Shown here piece by piece: positions 9,328 through 31,139 of a stretch of 64,000 bases of DNA. The notes under the pieces were generated by a model, which was given only the letters and a program-made list of their open reading frames with translations, was not told the DNA's origin and ran no database searches. The position numbers and the translations under genes are program-made. The DNA comes from Carya illinoinensis (Eukaryota > Streptophyta > Magnoliopsida > Fagales > Juglandaceae), in assembly GCF_018687715.1 (NCBI RefSeq), contig NC_056758.1, positions 35,931,467-35,995,466 on the forward strand, read 5' to 3'. Position 1 is the stretch's first letter. The number at the start of each line of letters is the position of its first letter.

Positions 9328-9380
9328 TCTTGTCTCTTGTAGAGAAATGATTCACGAGAGGTGATTCGTCATAATTTTCT

Positions 9381-9389: not shown

Positions 9390-9489
9390 AATTATTCAGT
9401 TCATCTTCTTTCTCATCTCATCTTCTTCACTTTTCTGAAATTAATCTGCATTCTTACTCTGCAATCTCTTTCTGCTTACTCACTTTGCA

Positions 9490-9918
9490 ATGGCTCAGCA
9501 ATCTTCTCATTGCCAAAACATGAGGTATTCTGCACCTCGTTCCCCAGTTGTTTCTGCTTCTTCCATAGGTGCTATTATGCAATCAAATAATGATCTGACT
9601 AATAAGTCAGAAAATGAACTTATCTACGAGCTTGTGAGTCTCGGTACTCGATACTCATCAGCCATTGTTGCATATTCTCAGAGACTGCAATCCAGGACTG
9701 GTGGGGTTGACAAACTCCACGAGAGTATTTCTCTGCTTCAGAGGCTTCTTATGGAATCCAACATGAAGATAGAAGCAGTAAAGCGAGAGAACAGAGATTT
9801 AAAATCTTTGCTTAACTCTTCTTTTCGAGTGGCTACTCCTTTAGATAGGAGAGGCATGCAGATTTTTGAAGAGCAAGAACGTTTAAAGATTGAGGCAAAG
9901 AGCCTCAAATTTCTGTAA
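9490..9918 (+). CDS. Antisense ORF protein of giant-LTR retrotransposon, intact (142 aa)
   Basis: Function unknown; I recognise no named domain. The frame runs opposite to the element's own orientation. It begins MAQQSS and has a conserved central block (LTNKSENELIYELVSLGT then RYSSAIVAYSQRLQ, about residues 38-67). From about residue 72 on it is rich in Leu at heptad-like spacing and in charged residues (KLHESISLLQRLLMES, KRENRDLKSLL), as in a coiled coil. It ends KSLKFL. No signal peptide or membrane segment. The start is the first ATG after a TATA box and a TC-rich leader of about 80 nt; AATAAA follows 15 bp after the stop. Related frames: 23888-24316 (nearly identical, two stops), 29918-30355 (about 60% identical in the core, full-length match) and 30599-31051 (distant). 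A structural or nucleic-acid-associated role is possible; expression is not shown by the sequence. Confidence 0.8.
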   Translation: MAQQSSHCQNMRYSAPRSPVVSASSIGAIMQSNNDLTNKSENELIYELVSLGTRYSSAIVAYSQRLQSRTGGVDKLHESISLLQRLLMESNMKIEAVKRENRDLKSLLNSSFRVATPLDRRGMQIFEEQERLKIEAKSLKFL

Positions 9919-9932
9919 TTTTGCTTTATGAT

Positions 9933-9938
9933 AATAAA
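9933..9938 (+). terminator. Poly(A) signal of antisense gene (copy 1)
   Basis: AATAAA 15 bp after the TAA stop, followed by another AATAATA. Also present in copy 2 near 24331. Confidence 0.5.
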
Positions 9939-11067
9939 ATAATACTTCACAAATATTCATATTTGTGTTTCTATCTTCTGGTATATGTTTTATGTACTCC
10001 ATTTTATTTCTTTCAGGGATTTTCATATATATGACATGATCCAATGACTCATATAAATATGCATTTAATCATGCATATCCAAACTCTCAGTAATCTTCAA
10101 GTTAATAAAAACCTCAAGGAGTTCTACTGGTCTAGGACTAACTTACTTCTTTATAATCGCAACAATCAGTCATCTTCCTAGGTGGTACTTTGATAACTGA
10201 CCAGTTAATAACTTAAACTTGAAACTTTCTCTCTTATGATTGTCATAACTCTTCTATCCATCATAAGTTATCAATTATTCTAACTCTAAATAATTTGTTC
10301 CTAATGTTCACATAAATCCTCAAGACCAATATTTTACTCTCCATATAATAGTCTTCAAAAGAAGATCGATCTATGTATCCATAAAGATAGTGCTTTGCCA
10401 GAAATCATTTACTGGCGGTGTGGTAATACTATTATCATAAATGAATCCTACTAATGCTAAAGCTTCTCCTAATCAAATTACTCTTCCAAACACAATTTCT
10501 ATCGTATTTTTAGAATCAAAACAATTCTCCAAATATGTGGAATACCATTCATCAATCCTACATATCCTTTCTCATATTACTAAAATGTATTCTATATCTA
10601 CATTGGTATGAACAATAATACTTCTAATGAAAATTGTTACTCTTACCACTAGGGTAACAATTTAACTTCCAAGCTGAATTCTCAAGCACCACAATTAATA
10701 GAAACAATGACTCGTTTGAATCAAACAATGTACAATTTACCAACTCCAATGACTTGACCTACTCCAAAATAACAATAATGCAATACTACCATCAATTGCA
10801 ATCAGATCAACGTTAACTATGTTTACCTCAACTAATTCTTCATCCATCGGGGAAATTCTGATCCTCTTGATTGTTATCTCCCTTAGGATTCCGAGGTATT
10901 CTATCACGAGTCATGTGTCCCTTCTTGAAACACACGAGCATATATATTAAAACCACATACTACCCTTCGTATCTTAAGAAATTCAAGCCTACTGACGACT
11001 AAAATTTCAAGCCTAATGTTTGGTGCATTTCCTAAGGACATGTGGATTTACTGCCCAGAGACGTATT
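9939..11067 (-). other. Remainder of internal region, copy 1, with possible gag zinc-knuckle scar
   Basis: Mostly non-coding. On the element's sense (minus) strand at about 10865-10955 a frame reads VCFKKGHMTRD followed by IPRNPKGDN. This resembles the second half of a retroviral CCHC zinc knuckle (CxxCxxxxHxxxxC) with its first Cys lost and its last Cys replaced. Copy 2 has the same segment in worse shape (25250-25330). If correct, it is all that remains of gag. Confidence 0.4.
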
Positions 11068-11079
11068 GCTCTGATACCA
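11068..11079 (-). other. Primer-binding site of giant-LTR copy 1
   Basis: Complement reads TGGTATCAGAGC, the initiator-Met tRNA-type PBS of plant LTR elements, 3 bp inside the LTR that starts at 11083. Confidence 0.88.
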
Positions 11080-11082
11080 CCC

Positions 11083-14000
11083 TGTGACGCCCCCAAATTC
11101 CGTTTGGGATTGGACGGACATTTGAAGCGTCGAGACATGCAACACAAGGTTACCTGCCCCCGTTCATGACATATAAGATGCAATAATCCTAACATGCATC
11201 TAACATTATGCAATATTCGCAGCGGATAATTTTTTTCTTTAGCAATACTATGCACCAAATTAAAATATCCCAAATACTTAAAACATACTTCATATATAAA
11301 GATACATTGAATAACTAAGATCACAGAACTATTCCAAAATAGTTATGATCTAAAAGTACTGGAGATGCAACTCCATTGTACAAGTAGTAATTTAACTACT
11401 ATATTAACCTTAACGACGCACCGTCGTTCAGTCGACTGTATCTAGTTGGTCAGCTCCTGATCTTCCTTCAGGTCCTGTAACAAGATCTACCATTCGGGGG
11501 GAATGGTAGTTGAGACTACCACAGTGAGATTTGATTACAAATCTCAGCAAGTTAACAAAAAACTTCCATACAGACTAATGATGCATGTATGACAGTAAAA
11601 GCATAAATGCATAATCAAATTCATAAGTAATTAAAGTATAACTTAGCGTACAACATAGCATAATTGACATAGCTTAAATTGAATCATGAACTAAACTTGA
11701 CTTGACATGAATTTGATCTGAAACTTGACTTAACATGAACTTGCTCTGAAACTTGAATTAACATGAAAAATACATACTCCACAGTTGTTGTGGCCCCATG
11801 TATTGTACGTGTAAATACATACTCCACAGTTGTTGTGGCCCCATGTATTGTACGTGTAAATACATACTCCACAGTTGTTGTGGCCCCATGTATTCTACGT
11901 GTAAATACATACTCCACAGTTGTTGTGGCCCCATGTATTCTACACAAACTTGACTTAACATTAAAAATACATACTCCACAGTTGTTGTGGCCCCATGTAT
12001 TCTACGTGTAAATACATACTCCACAGTTGTTGTGGCCCCATGTATTCTACACAAACTTGACTTAACATTAAAAATACATACTCCACAGTTGTTGTGGCCC
12101 CATGTATTCTACACAAACTTGACTTAACATGAAAAATACATACTCCACAGTTGTTGTGGCCCCATGTATTTTACGCATCACAATTGTAGTTAAATACATA
12201 CTCCACAGTTATTGTGGCCCCATGTATTCTACACATCATATTGTACTCAAGATGAAATGTGATTGGAATACGAAAGGACTGAAGTCCTGACGTAACATAA
12301 CGTGACTTGAACATAACTTAGAATACATGACCAACTTGAGATAGAAACATTTCGTAACATGGCATAACATATAATAGACAACATATTTAACATGACATAC
12401 TTGCAACAGTGAATATTACATGACTTGACATACATGTAATAGATGGCATACTTAGCATGACGTACTTGTAAGGTACAGTAATACATAACAGAATATATTA
12501 TGTAACAGATAAAAAATTGATGACAGAATAAATTCTGTATAATAGACAATTACGTGATAACTTGGCATGGCATGACATATATGATAACACACATACATAC
12601 ACTGTAATTCCTTTATTTAGCACACATACACAGTAGACTGCTAGTAAGTTAAAAGCTAACTTACCTCGATCTCCGCGTTTCTTATAAAACTTCAAGTGCG
12701 ATCACGAGGAACTGTAATTAGTAATTCTAAAAGTTAGAACTAAATCACTAATAATTTGAAATATGGAAAATACTAACTTAAAGAGTAAAATTTTTATTTT
12801 ACTCTCTACATGTGGAAAAATGACTGTTTTACCCATAACTTAAGGATTTTGCATACTAACTCTAAAAGTTTCTAAAATTTACATTCCTCATGTAAATTTT
12901 ATCCTAAACTTAAATATCAACTCAGAAAAATTTAAAACAAAACATAACTATGAAGAACACACTATGGTTGAAACATCCATAGGCCATTTCCCTTTATTTT
13001 TGTTGCAATTCCTTCCAACTTTAAAACTCATGCTTAAACCAAAATTTTGCAACAAACATCTTCCAATCCTAAGTTCAAAACCATACTTAAAACATCCATT
13101 TAGAAAAAACTAATAATCAACACCAAACTTTTTTGTAAAAAGATCCAAGCACTTGTATCACAAGTTTTGACCTTAAATCAAAACATCTCCAAGAATTTCA
13201 AAAATCAAATCTTACTTCTAACATATTCATAATATCATCCTAACATCAACCATGCTTTAAATCATCAAACTAAAGTCACCAAAATCACAAAATAACATTT
13301 GGAGTTTTTGATTTTACACTTAGTCCAAAAACATAAACTTTTCCCTCAACTAGTTTTGATAAATCTCTTGATCTATGACTTATAAATATATGATCTTCAA
13401 ACCAAACCATCATATGGTTTAAAAAGATGTCCTAAAACATATATAAGCTTCTAATTCAAGATCATATGGTTAGAAATTAACCAAAACATAAATTTAGCCA
13501 AGAATATCCACACTTTGACTTATTTGAATATCTCTTTGCATAAAATTTCATATCTTTGAAACTAACATCAAATATCTTCAAAATAATAATATAACATGTA
13601 TATAAGATGTTTAGGATCCTCCAATAAAATTATCAAAGTCATTAGAATAGGTTTAGACCACCAAAGAGTTAAACTTTCTCAAAACAGAAACTGTTTTTCC
13701 TCTTCCAGTTTCTAAGTTTCTAAATCTAAGAACATCTTTCATCAAAACCTTTAATCATGCAAAAATCCTCAACCAATAGTCACATATACATGTTAACAAT
13801 ACTCCATAAAAATTTCGGACCAATATCTATCCATTAGCTTGGTCAAAAACTCCAAACTATAACATATTCTCCAGTTTATCTCCCAGAATGACCTTTCTAT
13901 AGTTTACACAATATTTGACTGACCAATGATCTTCAAATGGGGCAAATAAGATATCCATGTAAACTAGACTCAAAAAGGAACAACTTATATGAAGGAGACT

Positions 14001-14614
14001 TTACGATAAAACACTTACAACGAAATGGGCATGCAAAAGACCTCCTAAAAGCTGTCCGAGAGAGAGTGTTTGATAATCTTTTATTGGAAGGTGTAATTAG
14101 ATAATTTCGTGGGGAGAGGTGGCTGGAGATAATTATGGATGAGATATGGAAGAGATGAGGCTGGAGTTGAGAGTTGAGTGTAGTTTTCTCCTACCCAAAA
14201 TATCTATAAAAGATTATCTCATAATATTTTATCTAATAATATCTATAAAAATCAACTCAAAATATTTTTACCCAATAATATTCATGAAAATTACCTCAAG
14301 ATATTTCTTTTTATCCAATAATATCTACAGTTTTAAACAGACGTTTTGATCGAAAATATAAAAAAATGTTATTGCGCCATAAGACTTTAAATAACCCTCC
14401 GAGTCTAATGGCACAAACCATAATACATTTTGACACTTCTAACTATCTCCAATAATCAAAAACACACTTCTGATACCATAGTAAATAATAACACTAACTA
14501 TGTAATTAGACAAAAACCTATATGATTAATGGATTCGTGAAAACTTATGGGGTTTTCACGAGGTTCTTAAAGTTAATAGAAATTTCACAATTGAATTTCT
14601 AGCGGGCTGTTACA
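11083..14614 (-). repeat. 5' LTR of giant-LTR copy 1
   Basis: Near-perfect duplicate of 5301-8832, bounded by TG and CA on both strands. It also carries the nine-unit palindromic array (11769-12237). Confidence 0.93.
11769..12237. repeat. Nine-unit palindromic tandem repeat in LTR (copy 1, right)
   Basis: Same unit number and order as at 5987-6455, as expected of LTRs copied from one template in a recent insertion. Confidence 0.9.
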
Positions 14615-15094
14615 GATATAGTTTGCGCTGTATTGTTCTTATTTCACTCATTGAGGAGTGTTTTCTGATAACCTACCCACTATCAGCTCTTGTATCAGAA
14701 AAAGGGTGTGTATAACCCTTGTGTGTGTAGAAAGTATTCTACACGGGGAATAGTTGAATCACCACGTGTAAGGTGATTGCAAGTGTAGAGGGTGTTCTAC
14801 ACGAATCCTTTGTTGCGGTGTTGTTCAAAGGTGTAATAGGTTTCTATCTCCACCTGAAGGAGGTTGAATAGTGAATTTGGGAATCCTCAAGGGGTAGCTT
14901 GAGGCGAGGACGTAGGCAGTGGGGCCGAACCTCGTTAACATACTGAATTTGCTTCTCTCTTATCCTTACTCTTTATATTTATTGTTATTTCATATTTTGT
15001 TTATGTTTTATATTATATATTTGATTTATAATTGTTATTTTTTTTTAATACAACTCAATTCACCCTCCATCTTGTATTAGTCATCTGGGCAACA
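14615..15094 (+). repeat. Copia 5' LTR, right piece
   Basis: Starts with the duplicated gatat and continues the LTR cut at 5300. Ends GGGCAACA at 15094, matching the end of the 3' LTR at 32868. Combined length is 1,334 bp, against 1,341 bp for the 3' LTR. Confidence 0.92.
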
Positions 15095-15096
15095 AT

Positions 15097-15108
15097 TGGT
15101 ATCAGAGC
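15097..15108 (+). other. Primer-binding site of copia element
   Basis: TGGTATCAGAGC, 2 bp after the 5' LTR end; complementary to the 3' end of initiator-Met tRNA. Confidence 0.92.
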
Positions 15109-15153
15109 TAAGAGCTCTATTATAAGACTAACTATCTTTTGAGTTAAGATCTT

Positions 15154-16797
15154 ATGGCTAACATTTCAGTTTCGTTTGGTGAAGGTCAATCTAGCAGTCG
15201 GCCTCCACTCTTTTGTGGAGATAATTACTCATTCTAGAAAGTTAGAATGAGAATATTCCTTCAAGCTCAAGGTCGAGAAATCTGGAAATGTATTGTAAAT
15301 GGACCTTATATTCCAACAAAAGTGGTTGATGGAGTAAAGGTCAAAAAGGAAAAATAAGAGTTTAATTGTGAAGACGATAGACTTTATACTTTGAATTTAA
15401 CTGCTATGAATTTATTATTTAATGCTCTCAATGGAAATGAGTTTAATAGAATAATGACTTGTGTTACGGCAAAAGAAATTTAGGATAACTTGGAAGTTAC
15501 TTATGAAGGAACTTCGCAAGTCAAGGAATCAAAAATTTATATTCTTACTCATGAATATGAAATATTTAAGATGAATGATGATGAATCTATTTCTAGTATG
15601 CACACTCGTTTTACTAACATCATAAACAGCTTGACAGCTCTTGGCAAAGTTTATTCCAAGGTGAAGATAGTAAGAAAAATTCTCAACTCTCTACCAAAAC
15701 GCTGGGAATCAAAAGTGACAGCGATTTTTGAAGCTAGAGACCTCAAGAAGCTCGAAATCAATGAACTCATCGGGTCACTTATAACCCATGAGTACACATT
15801 GAAAATAGGAGAAGAAGAAGGAAAGCTAAAGAAGAGTTTAGCACTTAAAGCTGTTCCTCATGAAAGTGAAAGTGATGAAGATGAGGAAAATGAAGATAAA
15901 GATGAAGAAGTTGCGATGATAACAAGAAGAATTCAGAGGTTCTTGAAGAAAAATAGAACTCCTCCAAGTAAATCTTTCAAAAAGTTTTTCAAGAAAGATT
16001 CAAGTAAAAATGACACTTTAATTTGTTATAAATGCAATAAACCTGGTCATATCAAACCAGATTGTCCTCTGCTAAAGAAAGATCGAAACAAGGGCAAGAA
16101 AGCAATGAAAGCTACATGGGATGATGATTCAAGTAGTTCAGATAGTAAAGCAAGTAATGAAGAATCAGCAAATCTTTGTCTTATGGCTAAAGATAACATT
16201 GAGGTAACAAATCTTGATAATATTGAAGATCTTTCATATGAAAAGTTGCAAAATGTTTTAGAAGAGGTATATGAGGAATTTGAAAAATTGGGTATCAAGT
16301 ATACTGCTTTGAAAAAGAAAAATTCTTCTTTAATAAACGAAATTAAAATTTTAAGAAAAGAAAATATCATTTTGAAAGATGAAAATCTTGAATTGAATAA
16401 GAAGAAAACCGATTTAGAAAATATTGTTGAAAACTTTACGAATGGAAAAAGAAATTTTGAAAAATTTCTTGGTAGTCAAAGATTTGTTTTTGACAAGGCA
16501 AGTTTGGGATATATGCCAAAACAAAAATACAAACCTTATAAAAATTTCTTTGATAATCATTCTACATCAAAGACTAATATTCAAAATTCTTTTCATAAAA
16601 ATAATTTTGTCAAAAAATAATATTATTATAATCATTCAAGTTTTTCATATATGTCACATGCTATTTGCAATTTTTGTAATAGAAATGGTCATAATTATCA
16701 TACTTGTCCTATTAGAAGAAATCATAGAAGGACTATTAGGGCCATATGGGTACCTAAAAATCTTGTTTCTTTTAATACTAATAAATAAAGGACCCAA
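15154..16797 (+). pseudogene. Copia gag (capsid/nucleocapsid), broken
   Basis: ATG at 15154 opens a frame continuous to 16620 except for three stops: TAG 15235, TAA 15355 and TAG 15481. The two TAG sites fall where copia gag normally has Trp (NYSFW and EIWDNLE contexts), so they are TGG to TAG changes. The C-terminal half (15490-16620, 376 codons) is open. It holds a CCHC zinc knuckle, CYKCNKPGHIKPDC, and a long Lys/Glu-rich coiled-coil-like tail. After a stop at 16618 the same frame shows a second zinc knuckle, CNFCNRNGHNYHTC (16669-16710). No full-length Gag can be made from it. Confidence 0.88.
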
Positions 16798-16846
16798 AGA
16801 ACTTGGGTACCAAGAAAAATCATTTTAATTGTTTTTATAAGTATAC

Positions 16847-17848
16847 ATGAAGTCTTCCACAAGCAAAAACAAATGGTTTTTAGATAGTGGATGTTCAAGA
16901 CACATGACGGGAGACAAGACTGAGTTCTTTGATCTTAGATATAAAGAAGAAGGACACGTGACATTTGGAGACAACTCGAAAGGGAAGATCGTGGGAATAG
17001 GTAAAATTGGTAATGAATCTTCTCTCATAATTGAAGATGTTCTACTTGCTGAAGGTCTAAAATATAATCTTTTGAGCATAAGTCAATTATGTGATAAAGG
17101 ATTTACAGTTACTTTCAAAATAGATAAGTGCATTATTTTGAATGATCATAATTGTAATATTTGTTTTATTGCTTTTAGAAACAATAATGTTTATACAATT
17201 GATTTTGAAGAAATTACCTCACAAGATGTTATTTGCTTTTCAGTTCAAAATGAAACTAGTTGGTTATGGCATAGAAGATTAGGTCATGCCAACATGGAAC
17301 TTATTTCCAAACTTTCAAAAAATGATCTTGTGAGAGGTTTACCAAAAACATATTTTCTTAAAGACAAAATTTGTGATGCATGTCAATTTGGTAAACAAAC
17401 AAAAACTTCTTTTAAAACTAAGAAACATATTTCCACTACTAGACCATTGCAACTGATACACATGGATCTTTTTGGACCAAATAGAGTTGCAAGTCTAGGA
17501 GGAAAATATTATGTATTTGTTATTGTTGATTATTTCTCTAAATATACTTGGGTCATCTTTCTTGCTCATAAAGATGAGGCACATAATGCCTTTACCAAGT
17601 TATGCAAGAGAATTCAAAATGAAAAGGGCTATACTATTTCAAGAATCCAAAGTGATAGGGGAAAAGAGTTTGTTAATAAAAATATTGAAACATTTTGTGA
17701 TGAAAACGGTTTTGTGCATAATTTTTCTGCTCCTCGAACTCCTCAACAAAATGGGGTAGTAGAGAGGAAAAATAGATCTCTTCAAGAGATGGCAAGAACA
17801 ATACTCAATGAGAACAACTTGCCTAGTTATTTTTGGCCGAAGCGGTAA
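16847..17848 (+). pseudogene. Copia pol: protease and integrase core, broken
   Basis: Open for 333 codons. Order: aspartic protease with LDSGCSRHMTGD near the start; the integrase zinc region with a His pair (WHRRLGHAN) and CDACQFGK; then the integrase core with Asp in IHMDLFGP, Asp in IQSDRGKEF and Glu in PQQNGVVERKNR, the D-D-E residues. It lies in a different frame from gag. A single-base loss at the Trp-codon run near 17836 ends it early, and the next piece continues in another frame. Confidence 0.92.
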
Positions 17849-18972
17849 GTACTGCATGTTATGTTATAAATAGAGTTATGCTAAGGTCTAAGTTAGATAA
17901 AACCCCCTATGAGCTTTGGAATGAGAAAAAGCCCAACATTGGTTACTTTCATGTATTTGGATGCAAATGTTTTATTTTGAATGACAGAGATAATTTAGGC
18001 AAATTTGATGCAAAATCTGATGAATGTATCTTTCTCGGGTATTCTACTAATAGTAAAACTTATAGAGTATTTAATAAAAAGACTTTGACTGTACAAGAAT
18101 CTATGCATGTAGTATTTGATGAATCTAATTCTTCACTCTCCAAGAAATCTATTGATGAAGAAACAGGAGGTATAAATAATACGGAAAGTCTCAATCTCAA
18201 CAAAGAGAAAACAATAGAGGAAGTTCAACATGGAGCCATCAGTAAAGATCATCAAAATTTAATACAAGATGCAACCAAACAGTGGAAATTTGTGAAAGAT
18301 CATCCAGTGGAACAAATTTTGGGAGAACCTTCACAAGGTATAAGTACTCGATCATCTCTTAGAAATATTTGCAATCATACTGCTTTTCTATCTCAAATTG
18401 AACCCAAAAATATTGATGACGCACTTCTTGATGAATCTTGGATTCTAGCTATGCAAGAAGAGTTGAATCAATTTGAAAGAAATGATGTTTGGACACTTGT
18501 TCCTAGACCCAAAAATCATACTATTATTGGAACAAAATGGGTTTTTAGAAACAAGAAAGATGAGTCCGGAGTCATTACTAGAAATAAGACTCGACTTATA
18601 ACCCAAGGTTTTAATCAAGAAGAAGGAATCGATTATGATGAGACATATGCACCTGTCGCAAGATTAGAAGCTATTCGAATGCTACTTGCATATGCTTGTT
18701 ATAAAGATTTCAAACTTTTTCAAATGGATGTTAAAAGTGCTTTCTTAAATGGTTTTATAAATGAAGAGATATATGTTAAGCAACCTCCAGGTTTTGAAAA
18801 TCATATTTCCCCAAATCATGTTTTCAAACTTACAAAAGCACTATATGGACTTAAACAAGCTCCTAGAGCTTGGTACGAAAGACTTAGTGGTTTCTTGATT
18901 GAAAAAAGTTTTCAAGAGGAAAACTCGACACAACTCTTTTCATTAAATATGAAAATGATGATATTCTTTTGA
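17833..18972 (+). pseudogene. Copia pol: integrase C-terminus and reverse transcriptase N-half
   Basis: Continues the integrase (YELWNEKKPNIGYFHVFGCK, FLGYSTNSKTYRVFN) and then the RT: WVFRNKKDESG, YAPVARLEAIRMLLA, QMDVKSAFLNG, LYGLKQAPRAWYE. A frameshift near 18917-18922 ends the frame just before the catalytic YVDD, which lies in the next piece. Confidence 0.92.
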
Positions 18973-19418: not shown

Positions 19419-22400
19419 TGTGACACCCTCAAATTCCGTTTGGAATTGGACAGACATTTGAAGCGTCGAGACATGCAACACAAAGTTACATGCCCCCGTT
19501 CATGACATATAAGATGCAATGTTCCTAACATGCATCTAACAATATGCAATATTCGCAGCGGATAAATTTTTTTCTTTAGCAATACTATGCACCAAATTGA
19601 AAATATCCCAAATGCTTAAAACATCCTTCATACATAAAAACTCATTGAACAACTAAGATCACAACACTAGTCCAAAATGGTTATGATCCAAAAAGTACTA
19701 GAGATGCAATTCAATCGTACAAGTAGTAATTTACGTTAATTACTATATTAACATTGATGTCGCACCGTCGCTTAGTCAACTGTGTCTAGTTGATCAGCTC
19801 CTGATTCTTCTTCAGGTCCTGTAACAAGATCTACCATTCGGGGGGAATGGTAGTTGGGACTACCAAAGTGAGATTTGATTACAAATCTCAGTAAGTTAAC
19901 AAAAAAACTTCCACACAAGCTAATGATGCATGGATGACAGTAAAAGCATAAATGCATAATCAAATTCATAAGTAATTAAAACATAACTTAGCGTACAACA
20001 TAGCATAATTGACATAACTTAAATTGAAATATGAACTGAACTTGACTTGACATGAACTTGATTTGAAACTTGACTTAGCATGAACTTGCTCTGAAACTTG
20101 AATTAACATGAACATGATATAAAACTTAACTTATCATGAACTTGTTCTGAAACTTGACTTAACATGAACGTGATATGAAACTTGACTTATCATGAACTTG
20201 TTCTGAAACTTGACTTAACATGAAAAATACATACTCCGCAGTTGTTGTGGCCCCATGTATTTTACGTGTAAATACATACTCCACAGTTGTTGTGGCGCCA
20301 TGTATTCTATACAAACTTGACTTAACATGAAAAATACATACTCCACAGTTGTTGTGGCCCCATGTATTCTACAGAAACTTATTTTTTAACTGCTTAAATG
20401 CACATTCCACAGTTGTTGTGGCCCATGTATTCTACGTGTCACAATTGTTGTGTCTCACGTAGTGTATGCATCACAATTGCTGTGACCCCATACATAAGTA
20501 ATCAAGATGAAATGTGACTGGAATACGAAAGGACTGAAGCCCTGACGGAACATAACGTGACTTGAACATAACTTGAAATACATGACCAACTTGAGATAGA
20601 AATATTTCGTAACATGGCATAACATATAATAGATAACATATTTAACATGACATACTTGCAACAGTGAATATTACATGACTTGACATACATGTAATAGATG
20701 GCATACTTAGCATGATGTACTTATAATGTACAGCAATACATGACAGAATATATTATGTAACAGATAAAAACTGATGACAGAATAAATTCTGTATAACAAA
20801 TAATTACGTGATGACTTGACATGGCATGACATATATTATAACACACATACATACACTGTAGTTCCTTTACTTAGCACACATACACAGTAGACTGCTAGTA
20901 AGTTAAAAGCTAACTTACCTCGATCTCCACGTTTCTTATAAAACCTTAAGCGCTATCACGAGGAACTATAATTAGTAATTCTAAAAGTTAGTACTAAATC
21001 ACTAATAAATTGAAATGTGAAAAATACTAACTTAAAGAATAAAATTTCTATTTTACTCTCTGCATGTAGGAAAATGATCGTTTTACCCATAACTTAAGGA
21101 TTTTGCATACTAACTCCAAAAGTCATCAAAATTTACATGCCTCATGTAAATTTTATCCTCAATTCATATATCAATTTAGAAAAATTTAAAACTAATCACA
21201 ACTATGGAAGATACACTATGGCCGAAACATCCATAGGTCATTTCTCTTGATTTTTGTTGCAATTCTTTCCAATTTCAAAACTCATGCTTAAACCAAAGTT
21301 TTGCAACAAACATCTTCCAATCCTAAGTTCAAAACCATACTTAAAACATCCATTTAGAAAAAGCTAATAATCAACACTAAAATTTTTTTTGTAAAAAAAT
21401 CCAAACACTTGAATCACAAGTTTTGACCTTAAATCAAAACATCTCCAAGAATTTCAAAAATCAAATCTTACTTCTAACATATTTACAATATCATCCTAAC
21501 ATCAACCATGCTTTAAATCATCAAACTAAAGTCACCAAAATCACAAAATAACATTTGAAGTTTTTGGTTTTACACTTAGTCTAAAAACAAAAATGTTTTC
21601 CTCAACTAGTTTTGATAAATCTCATGATCAATGGCTTAAGAAGGTGAGATCTTCGAAATAAAGCATCACATGGTTTAATGATGTGTCATAAATAGGATCC
21701 AACCATCAAACTTAAAATCACATAGCTAGAAAAAAAATAAACATGGATCTAATCCAAAAAATCAAATCTTAGGCCTAACCGAAATCCTCTTGCATAGAAA
21801 AATCATATATTTGAAACTAATACTAAATATCTCCACAATAACATTCTAACATGAAAATAAGAGATTTAGGATCATCATATAAAAATATCAAAGCTTTTAG
21901 AGTAAGATCAAACCTCGAAATATTCAAACTTTCTCCAAATAAAAACTGTCTTGCCACTTTCAGTTTTCAAGTTTCTAGATCTAAGAAAATCTATCATCAA
22001 AAGCTTTAGTCATGTAACAAAACCTCAATAAAAACTCTTAAACACATGCTAAGAACACTTCATGAAATTTTCGGACCAAGATATGTCCATTAGATTGGTC
22101 AAAAACTCCAAAACATAACATACTCTCCAGATTCACGCCCAGAATAACCTTTCCATGGTTAAAAATACTTTTGACTGACAAATGACCATGGAATGATACG
22201 AAAAATACATCTGCGGAAACTAGACTAAAAGAGGAACAACTTTTATGAAGGAGTCATCGTGTGAAAATACTTACAAATAGTTGAAAATCTCCACGCAAAA
22301 AGACCCATAAATCTGTCCGAGAGCTCTTTTGCTTTTCTCTCTAAGAACGGGATGAAGAAATTATTAAAGTGAAGTAAAAGTGTCTTGTACGACTCAAGAC

Positions 22401-23122
22401 TTCTGTAGGGGGATTATTTGGACCTTAATGATCATTGAGTGGAGGTGTGGCATGAAGTGAAGGATAGTGGGGGGCAAAGGACAAAAGCTATGGTGCATGA
22501 TGCTTGATGGGGTGGGTTCCTCCATACTATTGAGTGCAGCTTGTGGCAATGAATGATCTGCCAAGTGGGGGAGGAAACTTCTCCAAGAAGCTTTGCCAAG
22601 GTGGCCAAATTCGTGGGCCTCAATTTGGTTGAACAGATGAAAAAGATTTTGCTTAGGTGTCATGATCTCACACCTTGATTTCCTTCACAATTCCATCTAA
22701 TGGTTTCTTTTTGTGCCAAGTATTTAATACTATTAATTATTTGTGGTTAAAATCTTACCAAGTGTCCAAATAAAATTTCGCTAACCTAATTTGGACATTA
22801 CACACTGTGATTTTGAAAACACTGCGCTTAGTACGTTTACCGAGGTTACTATTCACTCCAAAAATAAACGTAATAAACTTAGTACTGAAAAATCTTAAAT
22901 ATTCAATTAAACCTAGTGGTGTAGACTATAATGTATTCTGACACTTCTAACTATCTCAAATAATTAAAATCGCATTTCTGACACCAAAATGAGTGATAAC
23001 ACTAACTATGTTGACAGACTAAAACCTATGCGATTAGTCGATTCGTGAAAACTTATGGGGTCTTCACGAGGTTCCTAAAACTAATAGAAAATTCACAATT
23101 AAATTTCTAGCGAGCTGTTACA
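19419..23122 (-). repeat. 3' LTR of giant-LTR copy 2
   Basis: Starts TGTGACACCC and ends AGCTGTTACA on the plus strand. Holds a short palindromic array (20226-20450). Confidence 0.92.
20226..20450. repeat. Four-unit palindromic repeat in LTR (copy 2, left)
   Basis: Same CCACA-GTTGT-TGTGG unit as copy 1, four recognisable units plus a degraded fifth (CACAATTGTTGTG). The partner LTR has seven. Confidence 0.85.
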
Positions 23123-23134
23123 ATCTCCCCTCTT
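23123..23134 (-). other. Polypurine tract of giant-LTR copy 2
   Basis: Minus strand AAGAGGGGAGAT directly before the LTR start TGTAACAG; one base differs from copy 1. Confidence 0.8.
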
Positions 23135-23549
23135 AAAAAAAAGCTTTCGTCCTCGAAATTGAAGTAAGTAAGAAATAACAAGTTAAGGAATAGGTGTTGC
23201 TTACCAACCTGGTGTCTATCACGTATATATTTGCCTTTGAGATTATGTCATTCCTTAACTCTCTTATTTTAATCAACAATTATATTATACTTCTTTCCAC
23301 AGGTTGGTCAAGTTGTAACGACACACTCTTCAAATTTAAAACTTCAAGTAAATAATCTTCCGAAACTCTTCTTTAGAAAAACATAGGCGATATACCTTAA
23401 GTATTCTTGTAAATACTAAAGTTAATAGAGAATTCATCAAAATTAAGCCGTTATCCTCTCTCTCTCTCTCTCTTTTTTTTTTTTTAAAAAAAAATTTGGT
23501 GGCCCTTTGTTTTAGACCAGACAACTTTGATCCGCATGATTTTTATAAG

Positions 23550-23725
23550 TCTTCTGTAGCTGTCAGGCACCGCATAGCTATGACACTACTTTGCTCTTCT
23601 GTAGTTGTCAGGCGCCGCAGCTATGATACTACATTGCTCTTCTATAGTTGTCAGGCGCCGCATAGCTATGACACTACTTTGTTCTTCTGTAGTTGTCAGG
23701 CACCGCAGTTATGATACTACATTGC
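23550..23725 (+). repeat. A-B-A-B repeats upstream of antisense gene (copy 2)
   Basis: Four units of 45, 43, 45 and 43 bp (from 23550, 23595, 23638 and 23683). They alternate between the GCATAGCTATGACACTAC form and the GCAGCTATGATACTAC form. Copy 1 has one A-B pair, so a whole pair was duplicated or lost. Confidence 0.85.
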
Positions 23726-23778
23726 TCTTGTCTCTTGTAGAGAAATGCTTCACGAGAGATGATTCGTCATAATTTTCT

Positions 23779-23787
23779 CTATAAAAG
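23779..23787 (+). promoter_or_regulatory. TATA box of antisense gene (copy 2)
   Basis: CTATAAAAG, 109 bp before the ATG at 23888, as in copy 1. Confidence 0.6.
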
Positions 23788-23887
23788 AAATATTCACTTC
23801 ATCTTCTTTCGTATCTCATCTTCTTCACTTTTCTGAAATTAGTCTGCATTCTTACTCTGCAATCTCTTTCTGGTTACTCAATTTGCA

Positions 23888-24316
23888 ATGGCTCAGCAAT
23901 CTTCTCATTACCAAAATATGAGGTATTCTGCACCTCGTTCACCAGTTGTTTATGCTTCTTCCGTAGGTGCTATTATGCAATCTAATAATGATCTGACTAA
24001 TAAGTCAGATAATGAACTTATCTATGAGCTTGTGAGTCTTGGTACCCGATACTCATCAGCCATTGTTGCATATTCTCAGCGACTACAATCCAGGACTGGT
24101 GGGGTTGACAAACTCCACGAAAGTATTTCTATCCTTCAGAGGCTTCTTATGGAATCTAACATGAAGATATAAGCAGTAAAGCGAGAGAACAAAGATTTAA
24201 AGTCTTTACTTAACTCTTCTTTTCGAGTGGCTACTCCTTTAGATAGGAAAGACATGCAGATTTTTGAACAGTAAGAGTGTTTAAAGATTGAGGCAAAGAG
24301 TCTCAAATTTCTGTAA
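23888..24316 (+). pseudogene. Antisense ORF of giant-LTR copy 2, two nonsense changes
   Basis: Exactly the length of the intact frame at 9490-9918 (429 bp, no indel) and nearly the same protein. TAA stops at 24170 (codon 95, where copy 1 has Glu GAA) and 24272 (codon 129, where copy 1 has Gln CAA). The first 94 residues remain open and include the conserved LVSLGTRYSS block. The absence of indels suggests the frame was whole when the element inserted, or until shortly before. Confidence 0.85.
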
Positions 24317-25465
24317 TTTTGCTTTATGATAATAAAATAATACTTCACAAATATTCATATTTGTGTTTCTATCTTCTGGTAGATGTTTTATGTGCTCCAT
24401 TTTATTTCTTTCAGTGATTTTCATATATATGACATGATCCAATGACTCATATAAATATGCATTTAATCATGCATATCCAAACTCTCAGTAATCTTCAAGT
24501 TAATAAAAATCTCAAGGAGTTCTACTGGTCTAGGACTAACTTACTTCTTTATAATCGCAACAATCAGTCCTCTTCCTAGGTGGTACTTCGATAACTGACC
24601 AATTAATAACTTAAACTTGAGACTTTCTCTCTTATGATTGTTATAACTCTTCTATCCATCATGAGCTATCACTTATTCTAATTCTAAATGATTTGTTCCT
24701 AATGTTCACATAAATCCCCAAGACCAAAATTTTACACCTTATATAATAGTCCAAAAGAAAATCGATTTATGTATCCATAAAGATAGTGCTTTGCCAAAAA
24801 TCATTTACTGGTGACGTGGTAATACTATTATCATAAATGAATCCTACTAAGGCTAAAGCTTCTCCTAATCAAATTACTCTTCCAAACACAATTTCCATCG
24901 TATTCTCAGAATCAAAACAATTTTTCAAATATGTGGAATACCATTCATCAATCCTACATATCTTTTCTCATATTACTAAAAGGTATTCTATATCTACATT
25001 GCTATGAACAATAATACTTCTAATGAAAATTGTTACTCTTACCACTAGGGTAACAATTCAGCTTCCAAGCTGAATTCTCAAGCACTACCACAATTAATAG
25101 AAATAATGATTCGTTTGAATCAAACAATGTACAATTTACCAACCCCAATGACTTGAACTACTCCAAAATAACAATAATGCAATACTACCATCAATTGCAA
25201 TCAGATCAACATTAACTATGTTTACCTCAACTAATCCTTCATCCATCAGGAAATTCTGATCCTCTTTATTGTTATCTCCCTTAGAATTCCGAGGTATTTT
25301 ATCACGAGTCATGTGTCCCTTCTTGAAATACACGAGTATATGTATTAAAACCACATACTACCTTTCATACTTTAAGAAATTCAAGCCTACTGACGACTAA
25401 AATTTCAAGCCTAATGTTTGGTGCATTTCCTAAGGACATGTGGATTTATTGCCCAGAGACGTATT
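24317..25465 (-). other. Remainder of internal region, copy 2
   Basis: Aligns with 9919-11067 of copy 1. No coding capacity apart from the weak zinc-knuckle-like scar on the minus strand (about 25250-25330, YFKKGHMTRDKIPRN). Confidence 0.5.
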
Positions 25466-25477
25466 GCTCTGATACCA
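25466..25477 (-). other. Primer-binding site of giant-LTR copy 2
   Basis: Complement TGGTATCAGAGC, 3 bp from the LTR at 25481. Confidence 0.88.
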
Positions 25478-25480
25478 CCC

Positions 25481-28400
25481 TGTGACGCCCTCAAATTCCG
25501 TTTGGAATTGGACAGACATTTGAAGCGTCGAGACATGCAACATAATGTTACATGCCCCCGTTCATGACATATAAGATGCAATGTTCCTAACATGCATCTA
25601 ACAATATGCAATATTCGCAGCGGATAAATTTTTTTCTTTAGCAATACTATGCACCAAATTGAAAATATCTCAAATGCTTAAAACATCCTTCATACATAAA
25701 AACCCATTGAACAACTAAGATCACAACACTAGTCCAAAATGGTTATGATCCAAAAAGTACTAGAGATACAACTCAATCGTACAAGTAGTAATTTACATTA
25801 ATTACTATATTAACATTGATGTCGCACCGTCGCTTAGTCAACTGTGTCTAGTTGATCAGCTCCTGATTCTTCTTCAGGTCCTGTAACAAGATCTACCATT
25901 CGGGGGGAATGGTAGTTGGGACTACCAAAGTGAGATTTGATTACAAATCTCAGTAAGTTAACAAAAAACTTCCACACAAGCTAATGATGCATGGATGACA
26001 GTAAAAGCATAAATGCATAATCAAATTCATAAGTAATTAAAGCATAACTTAGCGTACAACATAGCATAATTGACATAACCTAAATTGAAACATGAACTGA
26101 ACTTGACTTGACATAAACTTGATTTGAAACTTGACTTAGCATGAACTTGCTCTGAAACTTGAATTAACATGAACATGATATGAAACTTAACTTATCATGA
26201 ACTTATTCTGAAACTTGACTTAACATGAACGTGATATGAAACTTGACTTATCATGAACTTGTTCTGAAACTTGACTTAACATGAAAAATACATACTCCAC
26301 AGTTGTTGTGGCTCCATGTATTCTACGTGTAAATACATACTCCACAGTTGTTGTGGCGCTATGTATTCTATACAAACTTAACTTAACATGAAAAATACAT
26401 ACTCCACAGTTGTTGTGGTCCCATGTATTCTACGTGTAAATACATACTCCACAGTTGTTGTGGCCTCATGTATTCTACACAAACTTGACTTAACATGAAA
26501 AATACATACTCCACAGTTGTTGTGGCCCTATGTATTCTACGTGTAAATACATACTCCACAGTTGTTGTGGCCCCATGTATTCTACGGAAACTTATTTTTT
26601 AACTGCTTAAATACACACTCCACAGTTGTTGTGGCCCAATGTATTCTACGTGTCACAATTGCTGTGTCTCACGTAGTGTATGCATCACAATTGCTGTGAC
26701 CCCATACATAAGTAATCAAGATGAAATGTGACTGGAATACGAAAGGACTGAAGCCCTGACGTAACATAACGTGACTTGAACATAACTTGAAATACATGAC
26801 CAACTTGAGATAGAAATATTTCGTAACATGGCATAACATATAATAGACAACATATTTAACATGACATACTTGCAACAGTGAATATTACATGACTTGACAT
26901 ACATGTAATAGATGACATACTTAGCATGATGTACTTGTAATGTACAGCAATACATGACAGAATATATTATGTAAAAGATAAAAACTGATGACAGAATAAA
27001 TTCTGTATAACAAATAATTACGTGATGACTTGACATGGCAAGACATATATTATAACACACATACATACACTGTAGTTCCTTTACTTAGCACACATACACA
27101 GTAGACTGCTAGTAAGTTAAAAGCTAACTTACCTCGATCTCCACGTTTCTTATAAAATCTTAAGCGCTATCACGAGGAACTGTAATTAGTGATTCTAAAA
27201 GTTAGCACTAAATCACTAATAAATTGAAATATGGAAAATACTAAATTAAAGAGTAAAATTTCTATTTTACTCTCTGCATGTAGGAAAATGACCGTTTTAC
27301 CCATAACTTAAGGATTTTGCATACTAACTCCAAAAGTCATCAAAATTTACATGTCTTATGTAAATTTTATTCTCAATTCATATATCAATTTAGAAAAATT
27401 TAAAACTAATCACAACTATGGAAGATACACTATGGCCGAAACATCCATAGGCCATTTCTCTTAATTTTTGTTGCAATTCTTTTCAATTTCAAAACTCATG
27501 CTTAAACCAAAATTTTGCAACAAACATCTTCCAATCCTAAGTTCAAAACTATACTTAAAACATCCATTTAGAAAAAGCTAATAATCAACACCAAACTTTT
27601 TTTTGTAAAAAAATTCAAGCACTTAAATCACAAGTTTTGACCTTAAATCAAAACATCTCCAAGAATTTCAAAAATCAAACATTACTTCTAACATATTCAC
27701 AATATCATCCTAACATAAACCATGCTTTAAATCATCAAACTAAAGTCACCAAAATCACAAAATAACATTTGAAGTTTTTGGTTTTACACTTAGTCTAAAA
27801 ACAGAAAAGTTTTCATCAACTAGTTTTGATAAATCTCTTGATCAATGGCTTAAGAATGTGAGATCTTCGAAATAAAACATCACATGGTTTAATGATGTGT
27901 CATAAATATGATCCAACCATCAAACTTAAAATTACATAGTTAGAAAAAAAAAAAAACATGGATCTAATCCAAAAACATCAAATCTTAGGCCTAACCGAAA
28001 TCCTCTTGCATAGAAAAATCATATATTTGAAACTAATACTAAATATCTCCACAATAACATTCTAACATGAAAATAAGAGATTTAGGATCATCATATAAAA
28101 ATATCAAAGCCTTTAGAGTAAGATCAAACCTCGAAATATTCAAACTTTCTCCAAATAAAAACTGTCTTGCCACTTCCAGTTTTTAAGTTTCTAGATTTAA
28201 GAAAATCTATCATCAAAAGCTTTAGTCATGTAACAAAACCTCAATAAAAACTCTTAAACACATGCTAAGAACACTCCATAAAATTTTCGGATCAAGATAT
28301 GTCCATTAGATTGGTCAAAAACTCCAAAACATAATGTACTCTCCAGATTCACGCCCAGAATGACCTTTCCATGGTTAAAAATACTTTTGACTAACCAAAT

Positions 28401-29348
28401 GACCATGGAATGATAAGAAAAATACATCTATGGAAATTAGACTCAAAGAGGAACAACTTTTATGAAGGAGTTATCGTGTGAAAATACTTACAAATAGTTG
28501 AAAATCTCCACGTAAAAAGACCCATAAATCTGTCCGAGAGCTCTTTTGCGTTTCTCTCTAAGAACGGGATGAAGAAATTATTAAAGTGAAGTAAAAGTGT
28601 CTTGCACGACTCAAGACTTCTGTAGGGGAATTATTTGGACCTTAATGTTCATTGAGTGGAGGTGTGACATGAAGTGAAGGATAGTGGGGGGCAAAGGACA
28701 AAAGCTATGGGGCATGATGCTTGATGGGGTGGGTTCCTCCATACTATTGAGTGCAGCTTGTGGCAATGAATGATCTGCCAAGTGGGGGAGGAAACTTCTC
28801 CAAGAAGCCTTGCCAAGGTGGCCAAATTCGTGGGCCTTAGTGGGCCTCAATTTGGTTAATCAGATGAAAAAGATTTTGCTTAGGTGTCATGATCTCACAC
28901 CTTGATTTCCTTCACAATTTCATCTAATGGTTTCTTTTTGTGCCAAGTATCTAATACTATTAATTATGTGTGGTTAAGATATTGCCAAGTGTCCAAATAA
29001 AATTTCGCTAACCTAATTTGGACATTACACACTGTGATTTTGAAAACACTGCGCTTAGTACGTTTACCGAGGTTACTATTCACTCAAAAAATAAACGTAA
29101 TAAACTTAGTACTGAAAAATCCTAAATATTCAATTAAATCTAGTGGTGTAGACTATAATGTATTCTGACACTTCTAATTATCTCAAATAATTAAATCGCA
29201 TTTCTGGCACCAAAATGAGTGATAACACTAACTATGTTGACAGGGTAAAACCTATGCGATTAGTCGATTCGTGAAAACTTATGGGGTCTTCACGAGGTTC
29301 CTAAAGCTAATAGAAAATTCACAATTAAATTTCTAGCGGGCTGTTACA
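25481..29348 (-). repeat. 5' LTR of giant-LTR copy 2
   Basis: 164 bp longer than its partner, largely because its palindromic array (26285-26650) has about three more units. Confidence 0.92.
26285..26650. repeat. Seven-unit palindromic repeat in LTR (copy 2, right)
   Basis: Units at about 26298, 26341, 26402, 26448, 26510, 26556 and 26622. Several have base changes in the CCCC bulge, while the CCACA/TGTGG stem is kept. Confidence 0.85.
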
Positions 29349-29353
29349 CAATT

Positions 29354-29869
29354 AACCTAGGGTTATGGTACCCTAAGCACACATCTTTCGATCTAATCAG
29401 TTACACAGATGCAGATTATGCTGGCTGTAAAATAGATTGAAAAAACACTAGTGGAGCATGTCATTTCTTAGGTCATGCATTAGTTTCCTGATTTAGTAAA
29501 AAACAAAATTCTGTTGCACTATCTACTGCTGAGGCAGAATATGTTGCTGCGGGTAGTTGTTGTGCTCAAGTTCTCTACATGAAGCAACAACTTGAAGATT
29601 TTAAACTCAAGTATAATCACATTCCAATCAAATGTGATAATACAAGTGCTATAAATCTTTCAAAGAACCCAATACAACATTCTAGAACTAAGCATATTGA
29701 AATAAGATATCATTTTCTTTGAGATCATGTGCAGAAAGGCGATATAGTATTAGAATTCACAAACACACACGATCAGTTAGCAGATATTTTCACAAAACCT
29801 TTACCAGAAGATAGATTATGTATGATCAGAAGAGAAATAGGTATGATGCATGCTATGAATATCTCTTAA
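29354..29869 (+). pseudogene. Copia RNase H domain, broken by three stops
   Basis: Continues the copia pol after the nested element. Motifs: SYTDADYAGC (first catalytic Asp), LSTAEAEYVAA (catalytic Glu), KCDNTSAINLS (catalytic Asp), SRTKHIEIRYHF, DIFTKPLP. The stops TGA 29438, TGA 29489 and TGA 29720 sit where the family has Arg, Trp and Arg, so each is explained by a C-to-T or G-to-A change (CGA or TGG to TGA). The natural stop is TAA at 29867. Confidence 0.9.
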
Positions 29870-29917
29870 AAGATAGACTAGAGTCAATAAAAATAGAGAT
29901 AGATTTTTTAAATACTT

Positions 29918-30355
29918 TTACATAAACTTGAGATTCTTAACCTCATGTTTGAGACGCTCATTCTCTTCATACAATATCATGTCATTCTTATCCATGGGAA
30001 CCGGCAAGCAGAATGAAGAATCTAATAAAGATTTCAACTGTTTATTCTTCTGCCGAATGATTCCTTCCCTTGTGTGAGACTCTTGAACAATTCATTGAAG
30101 TACAATAATTTGTTCTTTGAGCTTTTCAACTTCATGATTTTTGGCTTGTAGCCGCTGAGAAAAAGCAACAATAGAGGAAGAGTAGCGAGTCCCAAGACTC
30201 ACCAAGTCATAAATAGCATCAGAATCTGACTTATTAGTCAGATTATTATTTTCTTGCTGCAACATGGCACCAATGGCAGCTGCAGAAAGGACAGGAGGTT
30301 GAGATGCAGAATACCTCATGGATGGATATAGAGAAATGTTAGAAGAATGAGCCAT
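29918..30355 (-). pseudogene. Antisense ORF A of copia element (145 aa, one stop)
   Basis: Lies between pol and the 3' LTR and reads opposite to the element. Starts MAHSSN. Residues around MRYSA, AIGAM, NLTNKSDSD and IYDLVSLGTRYSSSIVAFSQ match the giant-LTR antisense protein (9490-9918) closely. The similarity continues past a TGA at codon 88 (30094-30092) through QLKSLLDSSF and ERLKHEVKNLKFM to the final TAA, so both have the same overall length and C-terminus. The second half is coiled-coil-like. TATA box 106 bp before the ATG. Function unknown. The stop at codon 88 leaves an 87-aa product if expressed. Confidence 0.82.
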
Positions 30356-30460
30356 TGAGAAAAGAGTAGAATAATTAAAACGGGAATGCTGAAGGAATGC
30401 AGATGAGTTATAGAGATGAGATGAAAACTTGATGCGGATTGGATGAACTTCAGGACTGAT

Positions 30461-30470
30461 TTTATAGAGA
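30461..30470 (-). promoter_or_regulatory. TATA box of antisense ORF A
   Basis: Minus strand TCTCTATAAA. Spacing to the ATG (about 106 bp) and the TC-rich leader match the giant-LTR antisense gene. Confidence 0.55.
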
Positions 30471-30598
30471 TAGCATAAAGAATAAGACAAACTATTGTCT
30501 CTTCAAATCTTATTTAGTCAAAAAAAATACAACATATGTTGGACACACATTATCAAAAGTTTTCTTACTAAGCCAGCGAGATTAACAGTAGATTGTCC

Positions 30599-31051
30599 CT
30601 ATTTTTCTAGTAAACGATCAACCTCTGCTGTTATCTGTCGATGTTGACCTTGTATCTGAACCCTTTCTCGTTCCAGCTCCTCTATTCGTGGTTGCAGATC
30701 ATGAGCATACCAATCTGCAAATTTTTTCAACTCTCGGTTTTCTTACTTTAGCCTTTTATTCTCACTATCCTTATTAGCAAGCTTCTGTCGTAACTCAAAT
30801 ATTTGCATGTTAAGATGATCAATCTCACTCACCCTCGCCATTAACCTCCGAGACATGATCGTAACAGAGGCAGCATATTGACTACTGAGCATTCTTGATT
30901 CTGCAATAATCTCAGAATCAGCTTTACTAAAAAAACGGTTAACTGCTCCTATCATGGTATTGACGGCCTCAGGAGAGAAGATTGATGATTGATGCGTCAA
31001 GGGTTCCTGATTCAAGTCTGGAACATTAGTGGAAGAGAATTGTTCAGCCAT
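30599..31051 (-). pseudogene. Antisense ORF B of copia element (150 aa, one stop)
   Basis: Upstream of ORF A in the same antisense direction. Starts MAEQFSS, then SPEAVNTMIGAVNRFFSKAD, SEIIAESRMLSSQYAASVTI, MSRRLMARVSEIDHLN and a Leu/Glu/Lys-rich tail. The plan equals ORF A: short N-terminus, an 'IGA' segment, an acidic-Ser block, a Y-A/S-S block with SxRL, then a coiled coil with EN(K/R)xLK. Pairwise identity is low, so it looks like an old duplicate. TAA at codon 103 (30745-30743) interrupts it; the frame continues with ENRELKKFADWYAHDLQPRI to TAG at 30601-30599. TATA-like TGCTATAAAATA about 80 bp upstream. Confidence 0.68.
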
Positions 31052-31130
31052 TCTATCGTTGTGGAAAAACAGAACTCAGGTCAAGAAGCGATTATTTTTT
31101 TGGCATCCGATAGATGAAAATGATCATTAT

Positions 31131-31139
31131 TTTATAGCA
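31131..31139 (-). promoter_or_regulatory. TATA box of antisense ORF B
   Basis: Minus strand TGCTATAAA, about 80 bp before the ATG at 31051. Confidence 0.5.

Follow-up and report, generated by a model that had tools for sequence, protein, structure and literature searches.

The window analysed here, a 64,000-nucleotide stretch of the Carya illinoinensis genome (contig NC_056758.1 of assembly GCF_018687715.1, positions 35,931,467 to 35,995,466 of the forward strand), holds a copia retrotransposon within which two elements with giant long terminal repeats (LTRs), GL1 and GL2, are nested. Four small open reading frames (ORFs) lie antisense to the elements that carry them, one in each GL element and two, ORF A and ORF B, in the copia element (Table 1). 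We describe this antisense gene, its copies elsewhere in the genome and how three element families may have come to share it. An earlier reading made from the sequence alone had proposed that the four frames encode related proteins of 142–150 amino acids (aa), each on the strand opposite its carrier. The antisense placement held for all four frames in the window and so did the homology between ORF A and the GL protein, but three of the four frames contain stops in these copies and ORF B appears to be only a distant relative.

Antisense frames in a nest of retrotransposons

ORF A matches the GL1 protein across its whole length, as had been claimed (54% identity over 133 aa; expectation value, E = 1e-50). 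ORF B aligns with the GL1 protein at 29% over 112 aa (E = 2e-10, pairwise) and with ORF A at 28% with large gaps, a similarity that is weaker than it appears because of coiled-coil composition; it would be a distant relative of the other two. The polarity of the elements, originally read from primer-binding sites (PBSs) and polypurine tracts (PPTs), was upheld, with the copia junction on the plus strand and the PBS core of both GL elements on the minus strand (at 25466 in GL2).

Judging from its junction and PPT hallmarks and from copia gag, integrase and reverse transcriptase (RT) domains, the outer element is of the Sirevirus type. Its frames matched the Pfam families PF14223 (E = 1.2e-18), PF07727 (E = 2.3e-53) and PF00665 (E = 4.7e-19; frame preceding RT), and it is bounded by target-site duplications (TSDs) of TGATG, read from the flanks at 4437–4441 and 32869–32873. 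The PPT motif, AGGGGGAG, recurs ahead of the 3′ LTR, and its terminal copy is followed by AT and then by TG. No sense envelope-like (env-like) gene or env remnant was found in the copia linker (29870–31527), where the longest sense open stretch spans 66 codons.

GL1 and GL2 are whole insertions, each with its own TSD. The two LTRs of GL1 differ at 2 of 3532 positions and those of GL2 are 93–95% alike, with indels; GL2 is the older of the two. The 2250-bp internal region of GL1 (8833–11082) contains no gag or pol frame, and the sole other frame of at least 100 aa straddles the LTR border (11013–11324). A repeat pair was also seen in 18 of 20 further GL loci. Within the giant LTRs are tandem repeats with units of 45, 62 and 107 bp, near-perfect in parts of GL1 (5986–6453 and 11768–12235).

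Table 1. Coordinates of the elements, antisense frames and associated signals in the window
Feature	Position	Strand	Basis and remarks
GL1 antisense ORF, 142 aa, open	9490..9918	+	ORF listing, translation
GL2 antisense ORF, two in-frame stops	23888..24316	+	Translation
Copia antisense ORF A, 145 codons, one TGA here	29918..30355	-	Translation, homologues, genome copies
Copia antisense ORF B, 150 codons, one TAA here	30599..31051	-	Translation, homologues, genome copies
TATA box of GL1 antisense ORF, -108 from ATG	9382..9387	+	Upstream comparison
TATA box of ORF A, -111 from ATG	30461..30466	-	Upstream comparison
TATA box of ORF B, -85 from ATG	31131..31136	-	Upstream comparison
Module common to GL1 and gag-only family, ~1 kb, about 79% identity	9114..10117	+	DNA comparison; indel near 10011
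GL1 giant-LTR element	5301..14614	-	LTRs 5301-8832 and 11083-14614; TSD GATAT; within copia 5′ LTR
PBS of GL1, TGGTATCAGAGC on minus strand	11068..11079	-	Sequence read
PPT of GL1, minus-strand purine run adjoining 3′ LTR	8833..8846	-	Sequence read
GL2 giant-LTR element	19419..29348	-	LTRs 19419-23122 and 25481-29348; TSD CAATT; inserted within copia pol
Sirevirus-type copia element	4442..32868	+	LTR match, flanks, hallmark motifs; hosts nested GL1 and GL2
Copia 5′ LTR, first part	4442..5300	+	Self-comparison; resumes past GL1 at about 14620-15094
Sirevirus 5′ LTR/PBS junction, CA/ATTGG/TATCAGAGC	15093..15108	+	Exact match to published motif
Copia gag, integrase and RT frames	15490..18972	+ (sense)	pol split by GL2, tail at about 29351-29869
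Sirevirus PPT octamers, several	31347..31525	+	31347 and 31457 exact; terminal 31518 with one change
Copia 3′ LTR	31528..32868	+	Self-comparison, flanks

Copies across the genome and a third carrier

We searched the species' own assembly (674,387,116 bases in 17 contigs) by protein similarity, evaluating the 150 best-scoring candidates per query and counting stops by eye. Stop-free frames made up 148 of the best 150 for the GL ORF (of 4614 candidates), 134 of 150 for ORF A (of 4616) and 144 of 150 for ORF B (of 4202), and the 148 stop-free copies rule out chance as the source of the open GL frame. In 19 of 20 fetched GL loci the PBS and the ORF lay on opposite strands, and in none did they share a strand (in one of the 19, L014, the PBS counted belongs to an adjoining unit). 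ORF A was antisense between the pol tail and the 3′ LTR in 12 of 12 copia 3′ regions, which had been picked from ORF A matches, and was free of stops in 11; ORF B was present in nine of these regions and stop-free in six of the nine. Relatives with the frame on the sense strand, which the sequence-only reading had named as the finding that would count against it, did not turn up in either set, nor among the gag pairs described below.

ORFs A and B form a regular tandem. The 150 best-scoring places of each yielded 67 pairs within 3 kb, all 67 on the same strand, and the distance from the B ATG to the A ATG was 696 bp in 64 of them. Three of the 12 Sirevirus copies (L036, L037 and L041) are without ORF B and have a 3′ LTR that begins about 600 bp earlier; they are perhaps a B-less subfamily. 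Head-to-tail arrays of GL units, spaced 5.3–6.1 kb apart, lie at C6:3554358-3581580, C3:45111345-45134401, C11:10623660-10648313 and C5:9920203-9937632, and a Sirevirus array with a spacing of 7842 bp at C1:15282936-15306896. The arrays comprise 4–6 units, and the ORFs listed within them, GL and Sirevirus alike, carry no stops; they match what unequal LTR–LTR recombination would give.

A third carrier was reached via matches to a more distant query. This gag-only, TR-GAG-like family (loci L042+L048, L043, L044 and L046+L049) consists of elements of about 5.5 kb with LTRs of about 0.34–0.42 kb, and both copies read end to end, E1 and E2, have the TSD ATTTT. The primer-binding region reads CGTTATCAGCACGA and differs from those of the other carriers. 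The gag, on the sense strand, encodes a CCHC knuckle and is open over 313 aa in E2 and split by a stop in E1; zf-CCHC (PF00098) was found at its cut-off and other gag families gave no match. No pol frame was found between the LTRs of E1 or E2, although a pol that belonged to a different lineage and had decayed could have escaped notice. Pieces of Sirevirus gag and pol had no match in L042 to L048, and their matches in L049 fall in a neighbouring copia, outside the element. Between the gag-only gag and the Sirevirus gag there was no significant similarity (best E = 0.10).

The antisense ORF of the gag-only family is 74–75% identical to the GL protein. When the best 150 of 1658 gag places were combined with the best 150 of 4559 ORF places, 37 pairs lay within 6 kb, and in 37 of 37 the ORF was located downstream of gag and on the other strand. 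DNA similarity between GL and gag-only elements is limited to the common module, which takes in the gene, its promoter and the downstream flank, and to a single 43-bp match in the GL LTR. Gag-only elements also contain, downstream of the antisense gene and on its strand, a recurring open stretch of 132–160 codons, INSAGIVSF... (L042 2909-3322, L043 2852-3331 and L044 3006-3401, with the antisense ORF on the plus strand). Just outside E1 (L048, C10), the element is adjoined by a frame that, from its sequence, we take to be a resistance gene of the coiled-coil, nucleotide-binding-site, leucine-rich-repeat (CC-NBS-LRR) type.

The antisense gene has an apparent TATA promoter of its own. The box lies at −108 in 6/6 copies drawn from GL elements, gag-only elements and relics (for L045 and L047 see below) and at −111 in 3/3 Sirevirus copies, as well as in the 10 ORF A frames displayed from 12 copia loci; ORF B has a box at −85 or −86 in five of six printed open copies, the sixth, L040, being without it. 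Over about 150 nt upstream, TATA included, the score of the alignment between the GL1 ORF and ORF A was reached by 0 of 500 shuffles under 1/−1 scoring. For their downstream flanks the counts were 6 of 500 (1/−1) and 0 of 500 (2/−3), and the upstream region of ORF B gave no significant alignment with those of GL or ORF A. Across the 20 GL loci, 100-bp windows diverge by 0.7–2.5% in 9433–10232 and by 1.9–2.3% in 10533–10932, and the remainder reach 2.2–9.6%.

The encoded protein and selection on its frame

A structure model of the protein (mean predicted local distance difference test score, pLDDT, 78) has a disordered N terminus followed by helices at residues 41–112 (72 residues) and 117–140 (24 residues), and a coiled coil is predicted. 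No Pfam family reached its cut-off for the antisense proteins where cut-offs were displayed, and searches of protein sets found no functionally named homologue. Several candidate identities were rejected: HAP1_N (E = 4e-4; 20 bits against a cut-off of 33.9) and, for the ORF B relative, ZapB (2e-5, under its cut-off) were both taken as coiled-coil similarity; the best match among solved structures (E = 0.025) was regarded as coiled-coil noise; and membership of the TRP28 family was set aside, PF04195 being absent among the Pfam hits listed (25 of 57 families in one case).

A profile of family A, the ORF A and GL type, found 23 proteins in a large protein set. Complete GL-, gag-only- and Sirevirus-like members measure 142–148 aa, P0025 and P0026 measure 119 aa and several others are fragments. 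Three of the 23 bear C. illinoinensis gene names, and most lie on short contigs, which might be transcripts. ORF B had one relative in this set, P0027 (95%). P0026 appears under the name Streptomyces clavifer, on a contig of 673 bp, and is probably plant contamination of a bacterial assembly. Prokaryote contigs gave a single 18-residue match, in an archaeal bin, that we took as chance, and viral contigs gave no relatives.

Ratios of nonsynonymous to synonymous change (dN/dS), a check that had been suggested along with the original proposal, were 0.19 for GL1 against GL2, 0.21 for two gag-only copies, 0.39–0.43 from GL to gag-only and 0.31–0.41 from GL or gag-only to Sirevirus A, with dS of up to about 1.15. 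The overall range was 0.19–0.47 outside the relics and 0.21 to 0.62 for pairs that include L045 or L047. Pooled over 30 GL ORFs (28 found by protein similarity and 2 from the window), the corresponding ratio pN/pS was 0.33. On these ratios, the protein appears to be under purifying selection.

Origin and significance of the shared gene

GL and copia elements have the ORF in common and, less strongly, the promoter region; the carriers are unlike one another in their LTR ends, primer-binding region and gag. In the protein tree, built from 22 rows, support was 100/99 for the Sirevirus A group, 98/91 for the gag-only group and 98/99 for GL together with the relic L045, and the relic L047 joined GL and gag-only at 85/81. 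In L047 an A-like frame is preceded by a B-like one (47% over residues 59–133; two stops), both antisense, with about 0.7 kb between their extrapolated starts and with gag-only-like sequence downstream. This layout suggests that the B–A tandem once existed outside Sirevirus and that B was lost before GL and gag-only elements spread. L045 (with L050, C8:3671610-3680110) is 87% identical to GL, has one stop and shows no recognisable LTRs in the fetched stretch.

We read these observations as the spread of a cassette, an accessory gene in antisense orientation together with its own promoter, that has moved between three LTR-retrotransposon families and that selection has maintained, and give this reading a probability of about 0.7. 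Transfer is favoured over descent because the carriers have the gene module in common but not their LTRs, PBS region or gag. The cassette would consist of the small antisense gene, its TATA promoter and flanks, spread here among at least three families: an autonomous-type Sirevirus with the B-then-A tandem, the TR-GAG-like gag-only family and the giant-LTR elements without a gag or pol frame. In each family the gene lies on the strand opposite the element genes, towards the 3′ LTR. The cassette may have moved when co-packaged RNAs underwent template switching or when nested copies recombined, and the B–A tandem would be the older state. Transfer, its direction and the function of the cassette are inferred from sequence comparison; the protein tree, which is unrooted, gives no direction.

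Several results weigh against this reading. Copies were picked by protein similarity, as the best 150 of more than 4000, which skews both openness and dN/dS towards conservation, and among the best 150 gag-only ORF places 91 are stop-free and 59 contain a stop. The root of the protein tree is arbitrary and 7 of its 19 inner branches are well supported, and the kinship of ORF B is weak. Under 2/−3 scoring, 21 of 500 shuffles reach the score of the upstream alignment between GL1 and ORF A, which fails the 1% level; given the differing outcomes of the two scorings, upstream homology is supported but not overwhelming. Among recent Sirevirus copies, pN/pS is 0.437 for A (13 sequences) and 0.255 for B (10), both in excess of the 0.156 of the pol tail (13). 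Another frame gives 0.456 for A and 0.307 for B, and because it scores nearly alike the short-range test for A is weak and the argument rests on the deeper comparisons. Finally, GL divergence is lowest at the end of the ORF and over the next 300 bp (0.7–1.2% in 9933–10232 versus 1.1–2.5% in the ORF windows), and this conservation lies outside the reach of a protein model; a terminator, a function on the sense strand or sampling are possible causes.

Non-autonomous elements commonly derive from autonomous ones, and the gag-only and giant-LTR elements could have arisen by deletion from pol-bearing relatives, with the gene passed down vertically while their LTRs diverged. The sequence-only reading had offered such a derivation beside movement between families, and it would account for the same gene place and strand in all three carriers and for GL and gag-only modules that are about 79% alike beyond the ORF. 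Movement has come out as the favoured of the two, and descent from an unseen pol-bearing relative is weakened to the point of being unlikely: LTR ends and primer-binding regions differ, the gag-only and Sirevirus gags have no significant similarity, homology ends around the module and no pol-bearing relative of GL or gag-only elements was met, though no systematic search was aimed at one.

We consider it very unlikely that the antisense transcript matters as RNA, through double-stranded RNA or promoter interference, with the frame incidental. In GL copies the post-ORF sequence equals the ORF in conservation, and the available text of PMC7264820 reviews antisense promoters that lack a coding frame, but such a role sits poorly with a dN/dS of 0.31–0.43 between families at a dS of 0.3–1.15, with 54% identity over the whole length and with best copies that are mostly stop-free. 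Less probable still is that several families each captured the same host gene independently. Insertion of a gene copy could give an antisense orientation with its own TATA box, and the LTR-less cassette relic L045 lies some 6 kb from a frame that is presumably a VIN3-like host gene; L045, however, being 87% GL-like with a stop, looks like an element fragment and not a source gene, no Pfam family above cut-off or functionally named homologue was found, and the promoter and downstream flank are common too. The suspicion, natural in a nest of elements and raised at the outset, that a piece of one element had simply been inserted in the other within the window is refuted by the separate TSDs (GATAT, CAATT and TGATG) and by the same arrangement in many unlinked copies.

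Antisense ORFs of Ty3/gypsy elements (aORF-3R) had been cited as precedent and are indeed documented, in the available portions of PMC7264820, PMC11963269 and PMC4093653, for Grande (gene23), RIRE2, Retand (TRP28) and PvRetro13. The same portions of PMC7264820 ascribe an own promoter and a nuclear product to gene23 and review the antisense accessory genes of plant retrotransposons as being of unknown origin and function. The genes described here resemble them in running antisense to gag-pol in the interval that separates the coding genes from the 3′ LTR. They differ in their carriers, which are Sirevirus copia, gag-only and giant-LTR elements, whereas the plant carriers named there are gypsy elements (a class that we presume for some of the named examples). 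The gypsy proteins carry TRP28/PF04195 and SMC labels, whereas PF04195 is absent among the hits listed for ours; where the Grande-type gene has its own promoter, ours has a candidate one, a TATA box at a fixed distance.

Large retrotransposon derivatives (LARDs) have long LTRs and no gag or pol. GL elements resemble them in their long LTRs (3532 bp) and absence of gag and pol frames, and differ in carrying one conserved antisense gene and in their 2250-bp internal region. Sirevirus junction and PPT hallmarks, together with repeated LTR motifs with a CGG core and a polyC integrase signal, are described in the accessible part of PMC2829016, which, with that of PMC3599292, also reports that Sireviruses often have a sense env-like gene, confined to part of the genus. 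The window element shares the published junction and PPT hallmarks but, unlike many Sireviruses, has two antisense genes and no sense env-like gene between pol and the 3′ LTR. TR-GAG elements are defined, in the sections available of PMC8704663 and PMC7765848, by LTRs and by gag as the sole sense gene. The gag-only family agrees in its two LTRs, its TSD and gag as the sole sense gene (in 2/2 elements read end to end), and departs from TR-GAG elements as described there in its extra antisense gene.

The closest parallel is the sharing of ORF3 by rotifer retroelements, in which one accessory ORF type occurs across unrelated classes (Rodriguez et al. 2017, PMC5408684). Those hosts are animals and the ORF types are enzymatic or env-like, and the available text of that paper describes no antisense cassette with its own promoter. 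In the open-access literature searched, as far as its text was available, we met no report of an antisense gene in Sirevirus or TR-GAG elements, nor of one common to such families in plants; the term 'antisense' refers instead to knock-down constructs in the part of PMC3036077 available, to long non-coding RNA classes in that of PMC7765848 and to read-through or antisense transcripts near genes in that of PMC4608283.

The gene would probably be transcribed from its own promoter, antisense to the element, which would make expression independent of an active LTR. The product would probably be a dimerising or oligomerising coiled-coil protein acting in trans on element RNA, particles or chromatin. 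Selection that persists in elements without gag or pol suggests that the gene helps its carrier, by cis-preference or because elements without it spread more poorly; a carrier would survive better, and an element reduced to LTRs and one gene is what such selection would leave. By analogy with Grande gene23, with its own promoter and nuclear product, a nuclear regulatory role may be indicated. Regulation or anti-silencing is accordingly a possible function, at somewhat below even odds, and a role in particle assembly is doubtful. The two-gene cassette, with a promoter for each antisense gene, might even be a selfish module swapped between unrelated LTR retrotransposons, helper and parasites alike, encoding a trans-acting anti-silencing or regulatory coiled coil, with LTRs plus one gene as its minimal carrier; we offer this fuller picture tentatively.

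The occurrence of one antisense gene in Sirevirus, gag-only and giant-LTR elements indicates that genes of this type are able to pass from one family to another, and suggests that an accessory gene is traded among retrotransposons. These families amount to a natural experiment, in which the portion that is common and kept, a promoter and a protein of ~145 aa, would be the portion that matters, and a non-autonomous element that retains only the antisense gene makes the function of these proteins directly testable.

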